Shown one piece after another: positions 4,840 through 59,170 of a stretch of DNA of 59,170 nucleotides. Source of the DNA: Candidatus Aenigmatarchaeota archaeon (lineage in GTDB: Archaea; Aenigmatarchaeota; Aenigmatarchaeia; GW2011-AR5). The stretch is from positions 1 to 59,170 of the forward strand of contig JACPRW010000001.1 in NCBI GenBank assembly GCA_016193585.1, given 5' to 3'. Each line of letters begins with the position of its first letter. Within the stretch, counting starts at the first letter, position 1. The notes under the pieces were generated by a model. The model saw nothing but the letters and a program-made list of their open reading frames with translations. It made no database searches and was not told the DNA's origin. A program made the position numbers and the translations under genes.

Positions 4840-5034
4840 GCCTTGGTGGTGTAGTGGTCTAGCATGCGGCCCTGTCAATCCAAGCCCTTTCCTAGAAAGA
4901 GAGGTCTTGGACCAGCCCCCAAAGAACAGGTAAAATATTTTACCTAGGAGTTGAGGGTTGATAAGGGAAAGAACCTTAGGTTCTGACCTTTATGCAGACC
5001 GGCCGCGACTCGGGTTCGAATCCCGACCAGGGCG
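4840..5034 (+). tRNA. tRNA-Asp (GTC) with a 122-nt intron
   Basis: The acceptor stem pairs GCCTTGG with CCAGGGC (discriminator G). The anticodon arm reads CGGCC-CT-GTC-A on the 5' side, and the 3' side resumes C-GGCCG at 5000. The T arm is GACTCGGGTTCGAATCCCGA-like. Removing 4878-4999 leaves a normal 73-nt tRNA with the intron at the canonical 37/38 position. CCA is not encoded. The intron is unusually large and structured and is closely related to the one in the next tRNA; both contain GTTGAGGGTTGATAAGGG followed by a hairpin with arms AGAACCT/AGGTTCT. The gene is two bases from the next tRNA, so both probably come from one transcript. Confidence 0.85.
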
Positions 5035-5035
5035 C

Positions 5036-5290
5036 GGGCCTGTAGCTCAGCCTGGTAGAGCATCGGATGTATCCAGGCCTTTTAAAGCAAAGAAAAGGCT
5101 TGGACCAGCCCACAAAAGAATATGGAAAGCGAATAATATGCTTCCATAGAAGTTGAGGGTTGATAAGGGAAAGAACCTTAGGTTCTGACCCTTATACGGA
5201 TGAACCTTTTACATCCATGGTGACAGCATGGAATTGCGGCACCTGGATGTGGACAGCCGGGTGTCGCGGGTTCGAATCCCGTCGGGCCCA
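5036..5290 (+). tRNA. Intron-rich tRNA, probably tRNA-Lys (TTT)
   Basis: The acceptor stem pairs GGGCCTG with CGGGCCC (discriminator A). The D arm GCTCAGCCTGGTAGAGC and the T arm GCGGGTTCGAATCCCGT are intact. Between them lies about 180 nt. The first part (~5070-5199) is homologous to the tRNA-Asp intron. It is followed by CCTTTTACATCC, which gives a TTT anticodon loop, and then a second insertion of about 45-50 nt that folds as ACATCCA/TGGATGT, presumably a V-loop intron. The ends match archaeal tRNA-Lys best, but I could not derive one unambiguous mature anticodon stem, so isotype and splice sites are tentative. A degenerate or permuted tRNA is the alternative. Confidence 0.5.
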
Positions 5291-12167: not shown

Positions 12168-14720
12168 ATGCGTATGGACGAAAATGATTCTGTCGAAATC
12201 CCCCAAGCCATCCTGCAGAAATTCGAGGAGTACTGCAGGGAGAACAAGATAACCGGCAAGGAAAAGGAGGAGAAGTTCAAACAACTCAGGGAATGGATGC
12301 ACCGGTACGTGTTCGAGCCGGGCGAGGCCATCGGCATAATCGCGGCGCAGTCGATCAGCGAGCCTGCCACGCAGATGTCGACTTCCCCCTATGAAAAAGT
12401 TATACTGAAAAGGAATGGTGTAATAAATACAATTGAAATAGGCAAGTTTACGGATGCAATAGTGGAAGAATTGGGCAAAACGATTGGCGAATGGGATGTA
12501 TCCGATATATCGTCTGCAGGAGTATATGTGCCGAGCATTAACGAGGAGGAAAAAATAGAATGGAAAAAAGTCCTTGCAGTAAGCAGGCATAAATCACCTA
12601 AAAAGCTGTTAAAGATAGCCACATTTTCTGGCAGACAGATAGTTGCAACAGACTCGCACTCTTTCATAACAAGACGAAATAACAAAATAATACCCATTGC
12701 AGGGTCTGATTTAACCATGAACGATAGAATTCCTGTACTAAAGTACCTCCCAGAGAATTGCATAGAAACCGTAAATGTTAAAAATCATATTACAAGTCCT
12801 CTAAAAGAACGTTCTGGATTTTTGTATTCAACATGGAAATCAAAACCGATTCCTGCAAAAATAAACCTGGACTATTGTTTCGGTTGGTTTATAGGAGCGT
12901 ATCTTTCAGAAGGCAGTTGCAATGGCAACCAGATAACTATTTCAAATATAGACGAATCTTTTATACTGAACGGGAAAATATTTGCTGAAAAGATAGGCAT
13001 AGATTTCAAAGACAGGTTTTATGACGGTGAATTTGGTGACGGCAGAAGTCTTACTATAAATTCCGCTATTCTGTCCAAATTCATGATTTCAACATGCGGT
13101 GCGGGTTCTTCCAAGAAGCATGTGCCATACTTTGCTTACAGCGCAAAGGAAGAGTTTGTTTCCGGTCTGTTGAGAGGTTATTTTGACGGGGACGGGAATG
13201 TTCACCCTGAAAGAAATCTTATAAGGGTTTCATCGAATTCAAAAGAACTTTTGGATGGCATATGTCTGCTTCTTGCACGTTTTGGGATATTTGCTTATAA
13301 AAAACAAAATAAACACCAGTTTGGATTGTTAATACCCTACAAATATGCGCCAATTTTCCTAGAAAAGATAGGATCTGATATAGCCAGAAAAGCTGATGGC
13401 CTTGAAAAAATGGCAGAGAATGCAAAGGACTACTGGAATAAAAAGTCGCAGGACTTCACCGATATGATAAGCGGACTTGATGATGTACTCTATAGAGTGG
13501 CAAAAAAGTTGAAATACCCGACAAGATACGTAAACAACTTTACGAAAAGACAAAAAATTGGAAGAACTGCCTTGTACAGGTACATGAGTTTATTCGAAAA
13601 AATCGCAGCAGAAAAAAATGTAGATATATCCCATGAGATTAAACTTATGCGCAGAATGTTTTCTTCCGATGTGGTATGGGATAGAATAACGAGCATAGAA
13701 TACATTAGGCCTGATTTTGACTATGTCTATGACCTTACCGTTGAAGGGACGGAAACCTTCACAACCTTCGATGGCATTGTCACGCACAACACGATGCGCT
13801 CCTACACGCTCGCGTCGCAGAGTGACAGGCTTTCAAAGGTGACGCAGGGCCTTCCGCGGCTTATCGAGATTTTCGACGCGCGGAAGACGTACGAGAAGAA
13901 CATGCTCATTTACCTGAAGGAGCAGTACAACACCAAGGAGAAGGCGCGGGAAATCGCAAACCGCATCAGGTCGATGAAAGTTGCGGACATCACGCGGTCG
14001 CATTCCATTGACCTGGTCGAGATGCGCATAGAGCTCGAGCTCGAGCGCGAAGGTGACAAGGAAAAGGTCAAGAAGATCGTCTCGAAGTACCTCAAGGAAG
14101 CTGAAATATCGTTCAGGGAGAACAAGGTATTCATCAAGCCCAAAAAGGAGGAGATGCACAACCTCCGCAAGATCCGCAACAAGCTGCTGCGGTTCCACGT
14201 CGACGGCGTGAAAGGCGTCGAAAACGTGGTCGTCATCAAGGAGGACGAGGACTGGGTCATCCAGTCGCAGGGCACCAACCTCAAGAAGGTGCTCAAGATG
14301 GGGGAGGTCGATGTCAGCAGGACCAGGACCAATGACGTGTATCAGGTGTACGAGATTCTCGGCGTCGAGGCGGCGCGGAACATTATATTAAAAGAGGCGA
14401 AGGAAACGCTCGACGAGCAGGGGCTGGACGTGGACATACGTCATCTCATGCTCCTTGCGGATACCATGACATTCGATGGCGAGGTGAAGGCCATCGGCAG
14501 GTACGGCGTTTCCGGCAAGAAAGCATCGGTGCTCGCGAAGGCGAACTTCGAGGAGACGAAGAAGCACCTCATCAACGCGTCGTTCTACGGCGAGTCGGAT
14601 ACGCTGGACGGCGTCATCGAAAACATACTCCTCGGACAGATCGCGCCTATCGGCACCGGCATGGTCGAGCTGACCATTGACATGGAAAAGATGCGCGCCG
14701 CGCTGAAGGCGAAAGAATAA
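12168..14720 (+). CDS. rpoA2: RNA polymerase subunit A'' precursor with an intein
   Basis: The 850-residue precursor contains 379 extein residues and a 471-residue intein. The N-extein ends GIIAAQSISEPATQM (res. 70), the first part of the trigger loop; the C-extein resumes TMRSYTLASQSDRLSKVTQGLPRLIEIFDARK. After splicing the sequence reads EPATQM-TMRSYT, where most organisms have EPGTQM-TMRTFH: the trigger-loop histidine, which sits against the incoming NTP triphosphate, is replaced by threonine. The rest (cleft and C-terminal clamp-like segments, GTGMVELTIDM at the end) is typical of A''. Extein codons are GC-rich, intein codons AT-rich. It is followed by a paired-hairpin element and the L30e gene. 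Confidence 0.97.
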   Translation: MRMDENDSVEIPQAILQKFEEYCRENKITGKEKEEKFKQLREWMHRYVFEPGEAIGIIAAQSISEPATQMSTSPYEKVILKRNGVINTIEIGKFTDAIVEELGKTIGEWDVSDISSAGVYVPSINEEEKIEWKKVLAVSRHKSPKKLLKIATFSGRQIVATDSHSFITRRNNKIIPIAGSDLTMNDRIPVLKYLPENCIETVNVKNHITSPLKERSGFLYSTWKSKPIPAKINLDYCFGWFIGAYLSEGSCNGNQITISNIDESFILNGKIFAEKIGIDFKDRFYDGEFGDGRSLTINSAILSKFMISTCGAGSSKKHVPYFAYSAKEEFVSGLLRGYFDGDGNVHPERNLIRVSSNSKELLDGICLLLARFGIFAYKKQNKHQFGLLIPYKYAPIFLEKIGSDIARKADGLEKMAENAKDYWNKKSQDFTDMISGLDDVLYRVAKKLKYPTRYVNNFTKRQKIGRTALYRYMSLFEKIAAEKNVDISHEIKLMRRMFSSDVVWDRITSIEYIRPDFDYVYDLTVEGTETFTTFDGIVTHNTMRSYTLASQSDRLSKVTQGLPRLIEIFDARKTYEKNMLIYLKEQYNTKEKAREIANRIRSMKVADITRSHSIDLVEMRIELELEREGDKEKVKKIVSKYLKEAEISFRENKVFIKPKKEEMHNLRKIRNKLLRFHVDGVKGVENVVVIKEDEDWVIQSQGTNLKKVLKMGEVDVSRTRTNDVYQVYEILGVEAARNIILKEAKETLDEQGLDVDIRHLMLLADTMTFDGEVKAIGRYGVSGKKASVLAKANFEETKKHLINASFYGESDTLDGVIENILLGQIAPIGTGMVELTIDMEKMRAALKAKE
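12378..13790 (+). mobile_element. Intein with LAGLIDADG homing endonuclease in RpoA'' trigger loop
   Basis: The intein is 471 residues, starting at Ser (codon 12378) and ending THN, with Thr as the +1 residue. Splicing motifs are visible: block B TDSHSF (~res. 95), block F/G YDLTVEGTETFTTFDGIVTHN-like end with the penultimate His and terminal Asn. Two LAGLIDADG helices occur: FGWFIGAYLSEGS and LLRGYFDGDGN, each ending in the acidic catalytic position, so the homing nuclease may be intact. AT-rich codon use contrasts sharply with the flanking exteins, which indicates recent arrival. The insertion point is inside the conserved QM/TMR sequence of the trigger loop, so unspliced polymerase cannot work. 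Confidence 0.97.
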
Positions 14721-41131: not shown

Positions 41132-41249
41132 TGCCGGAGGTGGGTTTCGAACCCACGACCTCCACGTGCCTCTGTCACCGTTCCCGCGGGAACTCAAAGC
41201 TCATAGCGATGATTATGAGCGTGGCGCTCTACCCCTGAGCTACTTCGGC
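41132..41249 (-). tRNA. tRNA-Met (CAT, elongator) with a 46-nt intron
   Basis: Read on the minus strand, the acceptor stem pairs GCCGAAG with CTCCGGC (one A-C mismatch), discriminator A. The D arm is GCTCAGGGGTAGAGC, the anticodon loop CT-CAT-A, and the T arm GTGGGTTCGAAACCCAC. The intron (41168-41213) is at the canonical 37/38 position and folds as a hairpin containing GTTCCCGCGGGAAC. The start (GCC...) and D arm match elongator, not initiator, tRNA-Met. A GAACC/GGTTC hairpin lies just upstream of its 5' end. Confidence 0.88.
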
Positions 41250-45806: not shown

Positions 45807-48800
45807 TCACTTTTTCGTGCGTTTCCGATGATGCCTGCCGAGGAGCATGAGGGCCGCGCACATGGCCGCAAAGGCAGCAACAATGCCGATGATGGTGTAC
45901 ACGCTGTCTTGTGCCCGTGGTTCCTCAGTCACGGCTTCGGGCGCTGGTGCTACAGCCGTGCACTGCGTGGTGTCGAACGTGCAGCCGGTGCACTGCACCG
46001 TGCCGGCTGCAAACCCGAAATCCGTACACGACGCATTGACGGTGGTGTCACACGCCTCCCCCTGCTCAGCGATGCCGTTGCCGCATGCAGCAGTCTTTTG
46101 TGCCGGTCGACTGCCTGCTACAGCAAAAACTGAAAATCCCGGGGTGACAGCTTTGTACTCGTGCCCTGTTGCATTCTCGCCGGTTCTTTTCGTTTCCAGT
46201 GCATCCCATCTACTTTCTGAAAGCCTGTACAGCGCTATGCTGTCCGCATCCAAACCATGTACCTTCAGCCAGGTTTCTGGAACCGTGAAGCGTATGACGG
46301 CTTCCGAAATGCTGTTATTGGGTAGTGACAATGCAATGTCAGTGTAGTGGTACACGAACTTATCCAGCGGTGTATGCGGTGCTGCTACTTCCGTCAGCGT
46401 GACCGTGCCTGAAGAGAAATTGTCTTTTGTTACCACCGTTATGGCGCTTATGTCCGATACACGTTTTTTGAATGTGAAATGCACGGGCGTGCCTGCCAGG
46501 ATTCCAGAAACAGTTGAGGTTTCGCTAACCTTTCCCTCTGTATCAGCAATAAAGACGCTGCTTCCGCTCGTGCCGCTACTGCTGCTTGCTGCCGATGTTG
46601 CCGTTATGCATGCCCCGTTTGAGCACCCCGACGAACATGCAGTTGATGACCATGTGCCCGAAGAACATGAGCGCAGCGTTGAGCTGTCGCACACACTTGT
46701 TCCATGCTGGTAGGCGATGCTATAATCGTGCGCGCAGCTTCCTGATGCGGCACACCACCCGCCGCTGCCGTCAAAGTCAGCGGCGCAATTGCCGGAATTG
46801 CATTCGTCACTGGATGAGCACGCAACGCTGTTGCCCTTCTTGCCACCGACTGCAAAGTCGCTGAACGACGTGACGTTCGCCCAAACGTAATTTTCCGTTT
46901 CATTGACGCCGCCAACTGGCGGGTCGTATACAACCCATGCGGTGCCGTTGAACTTGTATATCCGCAGGGAGCTCTCGACTGCGCCTGTCTGGTTGAGCTC
47001 TTCGTCAGTGTAATTTATTTTTATGAGTGCGTAGCTCAGGTTGCTCTGGTTGCTTTCGAGTTCGCCGCTGACGTTTATCCTGAGGTATTTGCCCAGCTCA
47101 AGAACGGACAGGTTTGTCGGAAGCGGGTTGGTGGTATTGAAGGTAAGGTTGACGTCCATGCTGCTGAGGTTCGACCGGGACACGATGTCAAGCGTCGTGT
47201 TAAGGTTTTCAGCTCTCAGTCGTGTCATGTTGAAGGCGGTGACATTCGCCCTTTGCCGGTAATGCATCACTTTGATGACAAAGAACTGGTGGAACACGGT
47301 TGTATTGAAGCTCGTGTAATTTTCTTTCTGCGCAGTGTACCGGATGTCATGAAATCCGAGCGCAAGCGACGATGTGTTCAACACGCAGATATACTCGCTA
47401 TTCTCCCCCGCAACAGCAGGAGCGCACACCTTCCAGTCCGCTGCATTGGAAAACTTGTATTCCAGAAATACCTCATCCGCCTGGCGGAGGCTTGACGTGT
47501 CATCGGTCACCGTGGTGTTGAACGTCACCGTGCCGTTGACTTCCTGCGGGCCATATGGTCCGTTAACCGAGGTGAACAAGGTGCCATTGACAGCAAACGA
47601 TGCCTGCGAAGAATTCGCCGGCTTGTACAACGTGTTGTTGTCCAGGACGCTGCCCATAAAGCTCTGTTCTCCAACACTGACGAGGTGATCCGGGTCCAGC
47701 GTTACCGAACAGTTGCCACCGGTCAGCACGCAATCTGCGTAATCGTCATAAGGGACCGTGCCGTCTTTTGTCCATGAAATCCGTGCACTATCGTTCACGT
47801 ATGCTCCTTTGTCCGTGTCGAAGACGAGTATGCCAAGTTGTAGGGTGTTGAAGCCGAATCGCTGGACGCTTTGGTTGGTGCCAAGCGTGACATTGACCGT
47901 CACGTCATCCCTCTCCACGGTTACGCTGAAATTCGTGTAATTCGACGACGTTGCGTCGCTGACCGTGATGTTGATGACTGACTGCCCTATGTACGACCGG
48001 TTGAACGATGTAGAGAATGAGACAGAAGCGTTTGTGGTGCTTATCGAGCGTATGAGCTGCTGCGTGCTGCTTGGGGGCGTGGCGTATAAGCTGGCATTGA
48101 ACGCATCGCCATCGGCATCGCTGAGATTGACGACAAAGCTCCAGGTCTCGCCAAATCCCTTGTTGTTGTCATTGCTGTGCAGCGTGATGCTCGGCTCGCG
48201 GTTCTGCACGGTGAACGACTGCACAGCCATCAGGCTGTTCGTGTTGCCGGACGTGTCATTTGCCGTGTAGCGCCAGCCGACAACCTGCCTGTTGGTCAGG
48301 CTGGTGACGTTGTATGAAGCGTTGTAGATTGTCGTGCCGCCGGCCCGTACCGTGTAATTTACCCACGAACCGGTATGGTTGGAGGAGAATACGATAACGT
48401 CCAGGCCCCCGCTGTCGGTCCATAGCGCGCTCAGCGTCAGGTTATCGGTATTGTAAACGGTGCCGGGCTGCGTCACGTTGTTGAAGCTCGGCGCATTTGC
48501 TTCCGAGACAACAAACGAGTGAGACGTGCTCGCAGAGCTAAAGTTGCCCTTCGAGGCATAGCATGTCCATGTTTTCAGGCCCGTTGATGGGGAGGAGTAA
48601 TTCACCTCGTATCTTCCCGACGACGCGTTGTAGCTCATCGTGTTGTTCCCGCCAATGCTGGCAAGCACCGTCGCGCTGAGGACATCTCCGTTGCCGTTCT
48701 CCGTATAGTCGCAGAAGAGCGTGTTGTTTGCAGCGGGGTTGACGTTGAGCAGCGCCGCGCCTGCTGCAATGGACGTCGGTATCGCACTGATGACGACAGA

Positions 48801-51800
48801 ACTTGTTGATGTTGATGCATTCACGCCAGAGGTGGAGTTTGCGTGGAACCTGTAGCCGATTCTTGCAGTAACGTCAGTCGAGAGATTGTTTATGGTATAA
48901 TTGTACGCACTGGACGAATTAGTGGTGCTGTAGTTCACCCATGAGCCTGTGTAGTTGCTCTCAAAAAGCACCCTGCTTATTCCATTGCTGGCTGTCACCG
49001 TAACATTCAACCCGATGTCATCGTTGGCATCAGGCGATGAAGGCAATACCAGAAGGGAAGAGAATGAAGGCGTTGTTGTAGATACATTCACGTTCACCAT
49101 AACAGAACCCATTGCTGCCGGAAATATGCCTGTACCGTTGAATATGGCGGATATGTTCAGCGTAGCCGAAGAATAATCGGCAGGTACGGTGTACCGGAAA
49201 TCCAGCTTGCCGCTGGCTATGGCAGGGTCCCAGATGTAACCTCGCGCGTAGCCGGAACGGTCGTACTGGTAGAAGCTGCCGTCCGTTTCGTATGAAAGCC
49301 TGACCTGCGATATATTGGACGAGGGCCCTTCTATGTTGCCTGTCAATAGAAGCGTGTCGCCCCTGTTTGCATTCGCTTTGCTCGCGGCCAGGTTTATGAG
49401 AACGTTTTTCTGGAGCACGGCAACAGGCACGAATCTGTAGGAAATTGAATTCCCGCCTGCGTCGGTGGCATGTATCTTCAGGCTGACTTCTGATGCCTGG
49501 TTTGCTGGTACAGTACCGTTGTAAACGGTGGAGATGTTCGTGACATTCAGCGGCACCCATGCACTTCGGTCATAGCTGTAATAAACGCTCACTCCCGACA
49601 GGACGTTGTTGTCGGTTATGTTGAAGTCCACGTGAACCGTGCCATTTGCTGCAAAGAATTTCGATGCGTTGAGGCTCGCCACCCTTGGCGGGTTTGTATC
49701 CGTTGATGGAAGCGTGAAGTTTGCATCCACGTACGTTATGTTGTAAAGAGGGTAGGCAGTAGGCAGGGTTATGTTAACTGTATACGAGCCCGAGCCTACG
49801 AATTTTGAAACCGTATCCCAATTGCTGATGTTGTCAACAAGTGAGCCGCTCCTGTACATCAGGGTTTCGGCTCGCGGAAGATAGACTGTTCCCGAACTGC
49901 CGTCAGAAGAAGACCACGTAACGGTGGAATACTTTTTCATGTACGACTGGTTTGTTGTGCCGCGCAGCACATATTTGCTCAGCTGTATGGTTGTATTGGA
50001 GTTCTCGAAGAACGAAGGAAGATACGACGTCCCCAGGTAAACGTCACGGCTGTCGCCTGCCGCAAACCGTGCGCCATAAGGCCAGGTAAAGGACACAAGC
50101 GTGTCGTCTTCTTTCTGCCCTGTCATGGCGCCGAATTCGCTGCGCCAGTCTCCTCCAAGACTGCTGCTCTTGAGGTAATTCATGTACTGGTAATGCCAGA
50201 ATCCGTAGTTGTTGCCCATTACATACGTGGTTCTTTTCAGTGAAGCGGCCGTGCCTATCCATGCCGATATATCGAAAAACGAGTCCGGGGATATCCAGAA
50301 GAAGATGCTCGAAGAGCTGTCAAATGACGCGTTTATGGACGGGTCGTAGCCGGGGTAGTTATACGTGTAATTGAACACGCCGAAGTTGCTCAGGGAAAAG
50401 TTCAGGACATTCGGCGTGGAGTTCGTGACATTCGTGAGATTCCAGCCGACAAAATAGAGCTGGTCAGCTGCGGTGAACGTGTCATCGTTCCATCTGGAGC
50501 TGCTTTCGTACGAAGGTCTGGTGCGCCTGGGGTAGCCGATGTATGCAAACGACAGTGAAATGTTAGTCCCTCCCTTCCGGGTGTCGGATATCTGCAGTGT
50601 CCTGTTGCCTTCGAAAGACGAGCCCAGATACGTCATGCTTGTCGAAAGCCTGCTGCTTCCGGACCGCGCAACCGCGAGGTACTGCCATTTGTAAAGGGCA
50701 AGGACTCCGCCATCGAGACTTTGCCCGGCAGCCGTGAAATTATTCGCAGATGCGAGATTGAGCGTGATGGTCGTGTTGGAACCTACGGCTGCGCTGTCAT
50801 TTCCGACGAGAATATAGGTGGTGCCTGTCTGAACTGCGTCTCCGAGCGCCACAGCCGTGTAGTTCCCGGACGGGACAGTAAACGTGTACGTCCCGCCTGT
50901 AAATGACCAATAATAAGCCCACATGTAGTTAACCAGGTTGTCGTCAAACAGAAGTATGATTACGGGTCTCATTGGGGAAGTGCCGTTTTGTACCGTGACG
51001 GTCAGTTCTGTCAGGCGCACAAAAGCAAACGGCACACGATAGTTCTCCGTGCCCGATGTGATGTTCAGGTAACCGTAGAATGTGCCTCCGAGGCTTCCGC
51101 TATTTATGGACAGATTCACCGTTGCATTCTGCTGAGGTGCTATGGTGAGTGAAGAGACATTGGTTGTGGCTATGCTTCGCCACGTTGTGCCGTCGCTGAC
51201 ATTGGTTGCTGAAATGTTGAATGCCATGGCAGCGTTGTGAATGTTCTTGATAACAACCGCCTGGGATATGTTGCTCGCAGACACTTTTCCGAAGCTTACG
51301 ACAGCAGGAAACGCCAGCATCCTCGCGTTGCTTGCATTAAGGGCATTGACGCGGCCCGAGCCCTGGGCAAAGACGCTCTGGCCGAGGTCTTTTGTGGTGG
51401 TGACGAGTGCTGATTTCACCATAGCAGGAGACCAGCTCCTGTTCTTCTGGAACAGGAGCGCTGCAAGCCCTGCGACGTGTGGCGTAGCCATCGATGTGCC
51501 TGATATCGAGACGTGCCGCGTGTCTATGCACCGGTTCGTTGACCATGCAGAATCCCATTCAGCAGCGCATATGCTCACGCCAGGAGCCGCCACATCCGGC
51601 TTGAGGTTTTTATTTTTTGTCGGTCCCCGCGAGCTGAACGATGCCATGCTGTCGCTTTTGCTCGTTGCCGCTACCGTTATCGCCGTTAGTGCAGAGCCCG
51701 GGGTTCCCACAGCGCCTTCCGCAGAGCCGCTGTTGCCTGCAGCAACAACCGCCACAACTCCGCGCTCAACAGCGCGGTCGACGGCAAGCGAAAGCGCAGA

Positions 51801-52838
51801 GTTCTCATCGCCTGACCCGCCGAGGCTCATGCTGAGGATATCCAGATGATCAGCATAGTTGCCGTCGTTGTTCGGGTCACTTGCCCGCTCAACGCCGGAT
51901 ATGACCTGGGAAAACGTTCCTGAACCCCCTGCGTTAAGGACCTTGTAGGCGTAGATGGTTGCGTTCGGCGCAACGCCCTGCAGCGTTCCGTTCCCTGCGG
52001 CAGTTGCCGCGACATGCGTTCCATGGCCATGGTCATCAGCAGGATCGCTGTCTCCATTGACAAAATCGTATCCGCCTGCCACCTTGCATCCAGAGCCGTA
52101 GCATCCACCCAGATCAGGATGTGTATAGTCAACGCCGGTATCAATGATTGCTATGGTCACATTCGCGCCGGTGAGGTTCCTGCCGCTGCTGTCAGCAAGT
52201 CTCCAGGCGCTCGTTGCATTGATGAGCGGAACGCTGTCCGCGAGATTCGCATACACCTTACGGTCAAGTTCAACCCTCGCCACAGCACTGAGTGACGCAA
52301 GGCCTCCAATCATGTCATGGTCGACGCGGAACGCTACAGCATCGATTATTTTTAAATCCCGCATCGCGGGGACGTTTGCTGCAGCGGTTGTAAATGGCCG
52401 GTGCGGCAACCCAAGAAACGCTGCCACGTCATTTTTTGCCGACTCAAAGGTGCGGCCTGCCATGGATGACGAAGAAAGGTTGCCTGCACGCCCGTTGGCC
52501 GTTACATTGAGCGTAACAATAACAGGAATGGTGCCGTCGTGTGCATACCCCTCCTGCTCAAGAAGTGCCGTGTCGAAAAGGTCCGGGTCAGCTGCTGCAA
52601 CAGAGAATGTCGCCATGGTGCCGGGAAGGTTTGCAATGTCTATTACATGGTCTCCTTCATGAACCAGCGTGATGATGTCATCCGGACCGGCATCAACCGC
52701 AAAAGTCCTTGCACTTCCTGCGTCAGGGGCATCAAGCATAGTAAAGGGTGCAGGCTTGCTGTTGACAAGAATCTGCGCTGACGACAGGGACGCAAACAGC
52801 AGCAGTGCGGCTACCAGGACAGCCTTCCCCATGAGCAT
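45807..52838 (-). CDS. Giant surface-anchored subtilisin-like protein
   Basis: From ATG 52838 (signal MLMGKAVLVAALLLFASLSSA) the product is 2343 residues. A propeptide-like region is followed by an S8 protease domain with the intact triad: IIDTGVDYTHPD (Asp), DHGHGTHVA (His) and SGTSMATPH (Ser). About 1500 residues of Ig/fibronectin-like beta domains follow, rich in N-x-S/T sites, then a Cys-rich patch (SVACSSSDECNSGNCAADFDGSGGWC), a PGF-pre-PGF-like domain (VHFTFKKRVSDISAITVV...WLKVHGLDADSIALYRLSES), a disulfide patch (CGNGIAEQGEACDT) and a membrane anchor with basic tail (VYTIIGIVAAFAAMCAALMLLGRHHRKRTKK). The gene is 12% of the window. Confidence 0.93.
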   Translation of the reverse strand: MLMGKAVLVAALLLFASLSSAQILVNSKPAPFTMLDAPDAGSARTFAVDAGPDDIITLVHEGDHVIDIANLPGTMATFSVAAADPDLFDTALLEQEGYAHDGTIPVIVTLNVTANGRAGNLSSSSMAGRTFESAKNDVAAFLGLPHRPFTTAAANVPAMRDLKIIDAVAFRVDHDMIGGLASLSAVARVELDRKVYANLADSVPLINATSAWRLADSSGRNLTGANVTIAIIDTGVDYTHPDLGGCYGSGCKVAGGYDFVNGDSDPADDHGHGTHVAATAAGNGTLQGVAPNATIYAYKVLNAGGSGTFSQVISGVERASDPNNDGNYADHLDILSMSLGGSGDENSALSLAVDRAVERGVVAVVAAGNSGSAEGAVGTPGSALTAITVAATSKSDSMASFSSRGPTKNKNLKPDVAAPGVSICAAEWDSAWSTNRCIDTRHVSISGTSMATPHVAGLAALLFQKNRSWSPAMVKSALVTTTKDLGQSVFAQGSGRVNALNASNARMLAFPAVVSFGKVSASNISQAVVIKNIHNAAMAFNISATNVSDGTTWRSIATTNVSSLTIAPQQNATVNLSINSGSLGGTFYGYLNITSGTENYRVPFAFVRLTELTVTVQNGTSPMRPVIILLFDDNLVNYMWAYYWSFTGGTYTFTVPSGNYTAVALGDAVQTGTTYILVGNDSAAVGSNTTITLNLASANNFTAAGQSLDGGVLALYKWQYLAVARSGSSRLSTSMTYLGSSFEGNRTLQISDTRKGGTNISLSFAYIGYPRRTRPSYESSSRWNDDTFTAADQLYFVGWNLTNVTNSTPNVLNFSLSNFGVFNYTYNYPGYDPSINASFDSSSSIFFWISPDSFFDISAWIGTAASLKRTTYVMGNNYGFWHYQYMNYLKSSSLGGDWRSEFGAMTGQKEDDTLVSFTWPYGARFAAGDSRDVYLGTSYLPSFFENSNTTIQLSKYVLRGTTNQSYMKKYSTVTWSSSDGSSGTVYLPRAETLMYRSGSLVDNISNWDTVSKFVGSGSYTVNITLPTAYPLYNITYVDANFTLPSTDTNPPRVASLNASKFFAANGTVHVDFNITDNNVLSGVSVYYSYDRSAWVPLNVTNISTVYNGTVPANQASEVSLKIHATDAGGNSISYRFVPVAVLQKNVLINLAASKANANRGDTLLLTGNIEGPSSNISQVRLSYETDGSFYQYDRSGYARGYIWDPAIASGKLDFRYTVPADYSSATLNISAIFNGTGIFPAAMGSVMVNVNVSTTTPSFSSLLVLPSSPDANDDIGLNVTVTASNGISRVLFESNYTGSWVNYSTTNSSSAYNYTINNLSTDVTARIGYRFHANSTSGVNASTSTSSVVISAIPTSIAAGAALLNVNPAANNTLFCDYTENGNGDVLSATVLASIGGNNTMSYNASSGRYEVNYSSPSTGLKTWTCYASKGNFSSASTSHSFVVSEANAPSFNNVTQPGTVYNTDNLTLSALWTDSGGLDVIVFSSNHTGSWVNYTVRAGGTTIYNASYNVTSLTNRQVVGWRYTANDTSGNTNSLMAVQSFTVQNREPSITLHSNDNNKGFGETWSFVVNLSDADGDAFNASLYATPPSSTQQLIRSISTTNASVSFSTSFNRSYIGQSVINITVSDATSSNYTNFSVTVERDDVTVNVTLGTNQSVQRFGFNTLQLGILVFDTDKGAYVNDSARISWTKDGTVPYDDYADCVLTGGNCSVTLDPDHLVSVGEQSFMGSVLDNNTLYKPANSSQASFAVNGTLFTSVNGPYGPQEVNGTVTFNTTVTDDTSSLRQADEVFLEYKFSNAADWKVCAPAVAGENSEYICVLNTSSLALGFHDIRYTAQKENYTSFNTTVFHQFFVIKVMHYRQRANVTAFNMTRLRAENLNTTLDIVSRSNLSSMDVNLTFNTTNPLPTNLSVLELGKYLRINVSGELESNQSNLSYALIKINYTDEELNQTGAVESSLRIYKFNGTAWVVYDPPVGGVNETENYVWANVTSFSDFAVGGKKGNSVACSSSDECNSGNCAADFDGSGGWCAASGSCAHDYSIAYQHGTSVCDSSTLRSCSSGTWSSTACSSGCSNGACITATSAASSSSGTSGSSVFIADTEGKVSETSTVSGILAGTPVHFTFKKRVSDISAITVVTKDNFSSGTVTLTEVAAPHTPLDKFVYHYTDIALSLPNNSISEAVIRFTVPETWLKVHGLDADSIALYRLSESRWDALETKRTGENATGHEYKAVTPGFSVFAVAGSRPAQKTAACGNGIAEQGEACDTTVNASCTDFGFAAGTVQCTGCTFDTTQCTAVAPAPEAVTEEPRAQDSVYTIIGIVAAFAAMCAALMLLGRHHRKRTKK

Positions 52839-52902
52839 AGTTGTCCGCAGCCCTATATATAGCATGTGACATAAGTAATCAAACATATTATGATGTCACT
52901 GC

Positions 52903-57988: not shown

Positions 57989-58173
57989 AGGTGCGCCTTC
58001 GTGCTGCAGGATGTACCATGAGGTTGGCAATGAACCTGAATATACGGTGCTGCCCTAGCGGGCAACGTACAAGCAAGCGCAGATGCCCAGCCATGGTGCA
58101 TGATGCATGATGACCGGCATATGTATCATCAAAAGATTTTTATTCCTACTGGTTATGTAGGCATGTCCATTCT

Positions 58174-58268
58174 TATAGCAGATTGTAATAATAATGGAAC
58201 TTTTAGCTGCAATCTGCTATAGGGAAAGAACATCATAAAATGTTCCAAAATCAATGTTCTTTACTATT
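58174..58268. repeat. Paired-hairpin element, subfamily D (copy 2)
   Basis: The unit differs from 40792-40886 by one base (GCCGC versus GCTGC near the end of hairpin 1). Its terminal ACTATTA provides the stop codon (TAA on the minus strand, 58267-58269) of a displaced srp54 3' end. Confidence 0.85.
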
Positions 58269-58293
58269 ACTTCATCCCGAACTGCCTGAATAG
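58267..58293 (-). other. Displaced copy of the last nine codons of srp54
   Basis: On the minus strand 58293-58267 reads L-F-R-Q-F-G-M-K-stop, identical in protein to the end of srp54 at 58466-58440. The codons differ synonymously, with GC-ending codons here (TTC, CAG, TTC, AAG) and AT-ending codons in the current gene end. The two copies flank an E-type repeat unit and the GAACC/GGTTC hairpin. Confidence 0.85.
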
Positions 58294-58295
58294 AA

Positions 58296-58314
58296 GGAGA
58301 ACCTAAGGTTCTCC
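58296..58314. repeat. GAACC/GGTTC hairpin
   Basis: GGAGAACC TAA GGTTCTCC is a perfect hairpin with a three-base loop. Similar GAACC/GGTTC hairpins lie at the tRNA cluster (introns, ~5294-5320 and ~5414-5431), before tRNA-Met (~41258-41272) and in the 9056-9212 leader. Confidence 0.6.
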
Positions 58315-58338
58315 CCGCTATCATCCTCTCTCCTATGT

Positions 58339-58433
58339 AATAGTATGTTCAGTTTATTTTGGAACATTTTATGCTGAACATGCAGTATAGCAGGTTCGAA
58401 CGAAAAGTTCCAGTATTATTCGAACCTGCTATA
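58339..58433. repeat. Paired-hairpin element, subfamily E (copy 2)
   Basis: The unit starts AATAG and ends CTATA. Hairpin 1 (TATGTTCAG / CTGAACATG) has a loop with TTTTGGAACATTTTA; hairpin 2 (AGCAGGTTCGAAC / TTCGAACCTGCT) has a loop with AAAGTTCCAGTA. GGAAC and GTTCC of the loops are complementary. It ends six bases before the present srp54 stop. Confidence 0.85.
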
Positions 58434-58439
58434 AGCATT

Positions 58440-59170
58440 TTATTTCATCCCAAATTGTCTGAAGAGTCCCTGCATGCCGCTCCGCTTGAGCTTCGCCGGC
58501 GAGATCTTCTTCATCATCTTCCTGATGCTATTGTAATTGTTGAGCAGCTCGCGCACATCGCTTTCGCTGCGGCCTGACCCATGGGCGATGCGCCGGATGC
58601 GCGATGACGTTATGAGCGCCGGGTCTGCCCGTTCTTCCATGGTCATGCTCTGGAGCAGGTACTTCCACCGCTTCATTTTCTTTTCCTGGACGTTGGTGTC
58701 CATCTTGCTGCCAATCCTGCCGAGTCCCATCATATCGAGGATGCCGGAAAGCGGCCCCATTTTCTGCACGCCTTCTATCTGCGAATAGAAATCGTCCAGC
58801 GTGAAGTCCCCTCCCATGATTTTCTCGGCCCGTTTCTCGTCCAGCGTTGTTTTTGCTTTTTCAAGGAGCGCTTCAATGTCGGGCATGCCGAGGAGCCGCG
58901 ACACGAATTTCTCGGGGTCGTACATCTGCAGGTCTTCGACCGTTTCGCCGGTGGTGATGAATTTCACCTGCGCGCCGGTCTCGTGGCAGGCGGTGAGGGC
59001 GCCGCCGCCGCGGGCAGTCGCGTCAAGCTTGGTGACAATGACGTCGGTGATGCCCAGCGCGTCATGGAACGCCTTTGCCTGCTGCCGTGCTGCCTGCCCG
59101 ATGTCAGCGGGTACGACAAGAATGCGCTCGTCAGCGTTAAGCTCCCGGTTGACACGCTGAATCTCGCCAA
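58440..59170 (-). CDS. srp54: Signal recognition particle 54 kDa protein (C-terminal part)
   Basis: The 5' part is outside the window. The visible ~243 residues include the G-domain end, with ADIGQAARQQAKAFHDALGITDVIVTKLDATARGGGAL (GQAAR and TKLD are G4/closing-loop motifs), then the M domain with MGPLSGILDMMGLG, the signal-sequence-binding region and SRxRRIAHGSGRSESDVRELLNNY, the SRP RNA-binding helix-turn-helix. SRP54 binds signal peptides at the ribosome. The end LFRQFGMK is unusual in being duplicated (58267-58293) with synonymous codons, and the present last codons are AT-rich, unlike the rest of the gene. Confidence 0.97.
   Translation of the reverse strand, partial: GEIQRVNRELNADERILVVPADIGQAARQQAKAFHDALGITDVIVTKLDATARGGGALTACHETGAQVKFITTGETVEDLQMYDPEKFVSRLLGMPDIEALLEKAKTTLDEKRAEKIMGGDFTLDDFYSQIEGVQKMGPLSGILDMMGLGRIGSKMDTNVQEKKMKRWKYLLQSMTMEERADPALITSSRIRRIAHGSGRSESDVRELLNNYNSIRKMMKKISPAKLKRSGMQGLFRQFGMK

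Follow-up and report, generated by a model that had tools for sequence, protein, structure and literature searches.

Double gene end at srp54 in two genera of an Aenigmatarchaeota family, a possible scar of site-specific integration

The window, that is the whole stretch of DNA analysed here (59,170 nucleotides), belongs to a genome of Candidatus Aenigmatarchaeota (DPANN) comprising 10 contigs and 1.17 Mb. Judged by srp54, the closest named relative is likewise a genome of Candidatus Aenigmatarchaeota. Among its genes are an RNA polymerase subunit A'' frame (12168-14720), with a putative intein (ending ...VTHNT) between SEPATQMST and MRSYTLASQ, and a minus-strand gene at 45807-52886 for a protein of 2359 aa, putatively a secreted subtilisin-like protease in which domains are repeated. 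The 3' part of srp54 is found on the minus strand at 58440..59168, as an open reading frame with 242 codons visible in the window that encodes the SRP54 GTPase/M domain (PF02978 match at G000:C9:58512-58808). Full-length relatives of this gene are present in most of 79 genomes. The present gene end, LFRQFGMK followed by a stop, occupies 58440..58466 (minus strand, CTCTTCAGACAATTTGGGATGAAATAA; the gene reads ...GGACTCTTCAGACAATTTGGGATGAAATAA there). A second copy encoding LFRQFGMK-stop lies 173 bp beyond it in the same orientation, at 58267..58293 (minus strand, CTATTCAGGCAGTTCGGGATGAAGTAA). Both copies had been described at these positions in an earlier note on this DNA. When the window was searched with a degenerate pattern for the peptide, allowing up to two mismatches, only these two matches were found (0.00 expected).

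The two 27-nt tails differ at 5 positions (81% identity) and all five differences are synonymous, in agreement with the earlier description; the probability that five random substitutions would keep the peptide is about 1e-4. Counted over eight codons, the third position is G or C in 7/8 codons of the displaced copy and in 4/8 of the present end, compared with about 0.76-0.77 for the srp54 gene. The AT-shift of the present end had thus been correctly noted, but it is modest and weak when taken alone, since 54 of 440 eight-codon windows of the gene (12%) are equally AT-rich. The earlier note had held the displaced copy to be the native end and had expected empty sites in relatives to have only a GC-rich end. 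Three genomes of the same family, G015 (GGCCTGTTCAGGCAGTTCGGGATGAAATGA, LFRQFGMK*), G009 (GGCCTCTTCAGGCAGTTCGGGCTGAAATAA) and G003 (GGGCTGTTCAGGAAGTTCGGGCTGAGATAG), and others in addition, have a GC-rich srp54 end only and no displaced copy. The displaced tail of the window is 96% identical over 23 nt to the end of G015 and 91% over 23 nt to that of G009. The gene therefore originally ended with the displaced copy, as had been proposed. The present, recoded end was probably imported, judging from its sequence and from the GC-rich ends of the relatives.

Two copies of a repeat, the E unit, are found at the locus. E1 (58338..58434, minus strand) is inserted at TTA, 5 bp past the present stop; it measures 91 bp and is flanked by two TTA target copies. 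E2 (58173..58269, plus strand), which is absent from the earlier note, is inverted relative to E1 and inserted within the TAA stop codon of the displaced tail, with TTA target copies at 58173-58175 and 58267-58269. The stop codon of the displaced tail survives the insertion because the TNA duplication restores it. With a length of about 91 bp (97 bp with the target copies), termini TAG...CTA and a 3-bp TNA target duplication, the E unit is a MITE, dispersed in at least 44 copies. The TNA flanks match in 32 of the 35 copies in the genome that have both ends readable (TTA/TTA in 26, TCA/TCA in 4 and TAA/TAA in 2) and are mismatched in 3. The earlier note was right in placing an E unit between the tails, but the unit has no part in the tail replacement; it is a dispersed MITE with target duplications of its own. 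Read as one composite, E1 and E2 would have the outer ends TTA and TAA, which form no direct repeat, so that each must have inserted separately. The simplest reading is that E1 and E2 inserted after the tail had been replaced.

The MITE family is common to genera and families of the order (for example window 58173-58269, L059-L098 and L040-L044), and matches are found in 12 of 79 genomes, a few of them through the srp54 tail only. Its target specificity for TNA means that the MITE can enter a TAA or TGA stop codon and leave it intact. Presumably the E units are comparable to MITEs of the IS5 or PIF/Harbinger type, which are likewise short, palindromic and noncoding, with a 3-bp TNA duplication and TAG...CTA ends; this comparison covers the later insertions E1 and E2 only and not the tail replacement.

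A second double tail is found in G010, a congener of G003 that belongs to the same family as the window genome and to a different genus. The srp54 gene of G010 ends with GGATTATTTAGAAAATTTGGATTTAGATGA (LFRKFGFR*), which has a GC3 of 0 over nine codons while the GC3 of the gene is 0.81. This AT-shift is extreme; none of the 423 other windows of the gene is as low, and with a z of -5.8 it is the lowest of 128 srp54 ends. The present tail is followed by 34 nt with the perfect hairpin CAGAATTTC-GAA-GAAATTCTG and then by the native tail, CAGGAAGTTCGGGTTGAGATAA. In a BLAST comparison with G003, positions 1-421 of the G010 srp54 end align with 1-421, and 458-478 then align with 402-422 at 95% identity, a break which shows an insert of 56 bp before the native tail. 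The AT-rich stretch starts approximately 9 nt upstream of the position where native sequence resumes, and a single clean crossover point therefore does not explain G010. The core common to both candidate att sites is TTCAG in the window and AG only in G010. No E unit is present at the G010 locus. The E units were rejected as carrier of the tail on the basis of this locus, their own 3-bp duplications and the mismatch of the composite ends.

The displaced tail was found in only two of the 128 srp54 ends examined in the phylum, those of the window and G010, and these two also have the strongest AT-shifts within their family. In both inserts native sequence resumes at homologous positions, within approximately 8 nt, near the terminal Leu-Phe-Arg codons. 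The same replacement has arisen independently in G010, which points to a recurrent site. AT-shifted tails also occur outside the family (G142, G152 and G102); in the downstream DNA examined, neither these nor the AT-rich tail of G109 were followed by a displaced copy. In the home genome, 856 kb with 3,560 long open frames were scanned and gave no other recoded double tail, the one other perfect tail pair being an exact tandem repeat, and the phenomenon is therefore specific to srp54. Second copies resembling an attP were also looked for elsewhere in the order, and the extra matches to TNTTYMRNMARTTYGGNHT were due to chance or located within other genes.

Disregarding E1, the distance from tail start to tail start is 79 bp in the window, compared with the 56 bp inserted in G010. 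The 67 bp between the MITEs are unique as a whole among 156 genomes. The hairpin that the earlier note had seen between the tails is perfect (GGAGAACC-TAA-GGTTCTCC, 58296..58314) and lies directly beside the displaced tail. It is part of a minus-strand segment (58286..58340) that resembles the 3' half of two introns interrupting tRNA genes at 4840-5290 of the window (78% over 59 nt, E 0.002). Other dispersed copies exist, as similar motifs are found elsewhere in the same genome and in G007 and G002, also outside tRNA genes. The motif in the G010 insert belongs to a different family, of 37 bp, with more copies in G010 and G003, several of which are located just before start codons. One pair of copies follows an RNA gene reading like SRP RNA, and in G010 one copy is found after the stop of a gene that ends differently in G003. 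In each of the two inserts the stranded tail thus has a dispersed hairpin, specific to the lineage, as its immediate neighbour. Of 851 long open frames only 21 are followed by a perfect hairpin of this size, which makes the coincidence at both tails notable, although the observation is post hoc. No known RNA family gave a convincing match at the srp54 locus (Rfam).

The 37-bp motif, TATGGTCTGGACAG-hairpin-CTGGGCAGG, is dispersed in the genus of G003 and G010 (for example L325, L335, L337-L339 and L341), often a few bases before start codons and in one case before an ftsY-like gene. Of the interrupted tRNA genes, the one at 4840-5034 is a tRNA-Asp (cmscan) with a structured intron of approximately 124 nt, and the second, tRNA-like gene (5036-5290) has a related long insertion; the two insertions are about 80% identical over 107 nt and have a three-hairpin fold in common. 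A further tRNA gene (41132-41249, minus strand) has a 48-nt insertion in the anticodon region and is directly preceded by a GGAACC/GGTTCC hairpin. ARAGORN found zero tRNA genes in the window. The same hairpin motif directly precedes an apparent lone tRNA 3' half (L190:18704-18761) and a tRNA-Leu-like gene (L212:12172-12230), an arrangement that possibly represents a split tRNA or a leader element.

The reading favoured here, to which an even chance of being correct is given, is that the double tail is the scar left when an element, since lost, integrated site-specifically at the srp54 3' end. At its attachment site the mobile element would have had a copy of the final srp54 codons and the stop that was richer in AT but preserved the protein. 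On recombination into srp54 the host would have kept a full-length SRP54, now reading the tail of the element, while the native GC-rich tail was pushed downstream. Nearly all of the element would then have been lost, leaving 79 bp in the window and 56 bp in G010, and the two MITEs would have inserted into and beside what was left. The mobile-element origin of the tail, the site-specific recombinase and the deletion of the remaining element are what we infer here. Duplication plus drift would have left more changes in the displaced copies than are seen, which supports this reading; on the other hand, the hairpin motifs of the inserts belong to repeat families of the host lineage and show no obvious link with a foreign element. 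In this family, mobile DNA probably lands at the srp54 3' end repeatedly.

A mobile element with a restoring copy had already been suggested in the earlier note. Its view of an imported present end and a displaced native end agrees with the findings and is strengthened by the recurrence in G010, but the element and its integrase were not encountered. The 79-bp insert has no recombinase gene, and no integrase was found beside srp54 in the home genome or among the matches listed (PF00589) for 156 Aenigmatarchaeota genomes; the listed matches extend to about 1e-20 for the 156 genomes, so that weak ones could be missed, and are complete for 79 genomes. An intact srp54-integrated element was not seen in the 156 genomes, nor did three scans give viral contigs carrying such a tail. 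By analogy with integrases that target tRNA genes the mechanism is plausible, but with no integrase adjoining srp54 and no intact element or virus with the tail it is unproven.

The absent integrase and the differing left and right junctions in G010 would also be explained, together with the imported tail, by a process without any dedicated mobile element. The conserved end of srp54 could have provided the homology for recombination with DNA of an AT-richer relative, the other side being joined by non-homologous repair just upstream of the native tail. Such one-sided, illegitimate capture is considered unlikely, as it would have had to affect one gene at almost identical codons twice within a single family, each time with a tiny insert, and no other gene in 856 kb.

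The resemblance of the 3' part of the insert to the 3' half of the introns in tRNA-Asp and the second tRNA-like gene (E 0.002) suggests another, more doubtful explanation. A small intron-like or palindromic insertion could have entered between AG and G of the Arg codon. The displaced tail would then be its 3' exon; the insert would begin by spelling the same last codons and a stop, and SRP54 would be full-length even from unspliced mRNA. Joining ...CTCTTCAG to GCAGTTCGGGATGAAGTAA in the window (CAG/G join) and ...TTATTTAG to GAAGTTCGGGTTGAGATAA in G010 does restore the native frame, and the phase-2 position of the join is identical in the two species. However, the similarity to the tRNA introns is short and dominated by the hairpin, the motif is also found outside tRNA genes and the G010 insert motif is of a different family. 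Nor does any Rfam intron model match the srp54 locus at E up to 5, and the fold has no bulge-helix-bulge across the junctions. A spliced intron, moreover, needs no copy of the tail.

That the two copies are adjacent, equally oriented and 81% identical might suggest that the gene end was duplicated locally in tandem and then drifted, the alternative raised in the earlier note. The distribution of changes in both genomes contradicts it and makes it very improbable. Measured against the tails of relatives, the present end in the window has 3-4 derived changes, all among its approximately 5 synonymous sites, and the displaced copy 1-2 over 27 free sites; in G010 the present tail has A or T at all nine third positions while the displaced copy is 95% identical to the G003 end. 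After a duplication the stranded copy is unconstrained and should change faster. The reverse is seen, which fits the import of a differently composed tail and not drift. The sequences flanking the two tail copies in the window do not match each other either. An assembly chimera in this metagenome-derived genome is scarcely credible; the E units, as 97-bp repeats in more than 40 copies, do invite mis-joins, but the same architecture occurs in G010 without any E unit, and sequence that is unique in the genome separates the displaced tail from E1. A diversity-generating retroelement (template and variable repeat) was rejected, as the tail differences are not at template adenines.

A tentative idea, with a low probability, is that hairpin elements of 56-79 bp themselves insert at the end of this essential archaeal gene and restore it with a recoded tail and stop of their own. 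They would then be minimal non-autonomous integrative elements, or intron-like elements of which the unspliced form is still translated correctly. If srp54 is a recurrent insertion site, an AT-rich tail together with a stranded native tail would be a simple marker for elements or scars in metagenomes, and the site would show an element exploiting an essential, universal gene without harming the host. To our knowledge few integrative elements have been described in DPANN archaea, and srp54 was not found as an integration target in the literature searched.

Integration at the 3' end of protein genes is known from bacterial prophages, e14 and phage 21 at icd, where attP contains a near-synonymous copy of the icd end that restores the protein and the native end is displaced to the other junction. 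A restoring tail copy and a displaced native end are thus found both there and at srp54. The prophages have a tyrosine recombinase and a shared core, whereas the srp54 case has no recombinase and no long identical core. In Thaumarchaeota, 14 of 68 elements have integrated into protein genes in their 3'-distal part; NitEve-E2 exchanges 8 nt of its target gene, the stop among them, and casposons use ef-2 as target (PMC6563490). NitEve-E2 and the casposons resemble the srp54 case in inserting at the 3' end of a protein gene, with the element replacing the last codons and the stop and the frame being kept (PMC6563490). These elements are integrated in full and have att or TSD sites, while at srp54 there is a scar of 56-79 bp only; the srp54 case further differs in its target and in a replacement tail that is a synonymous, recoded copy of the native one.
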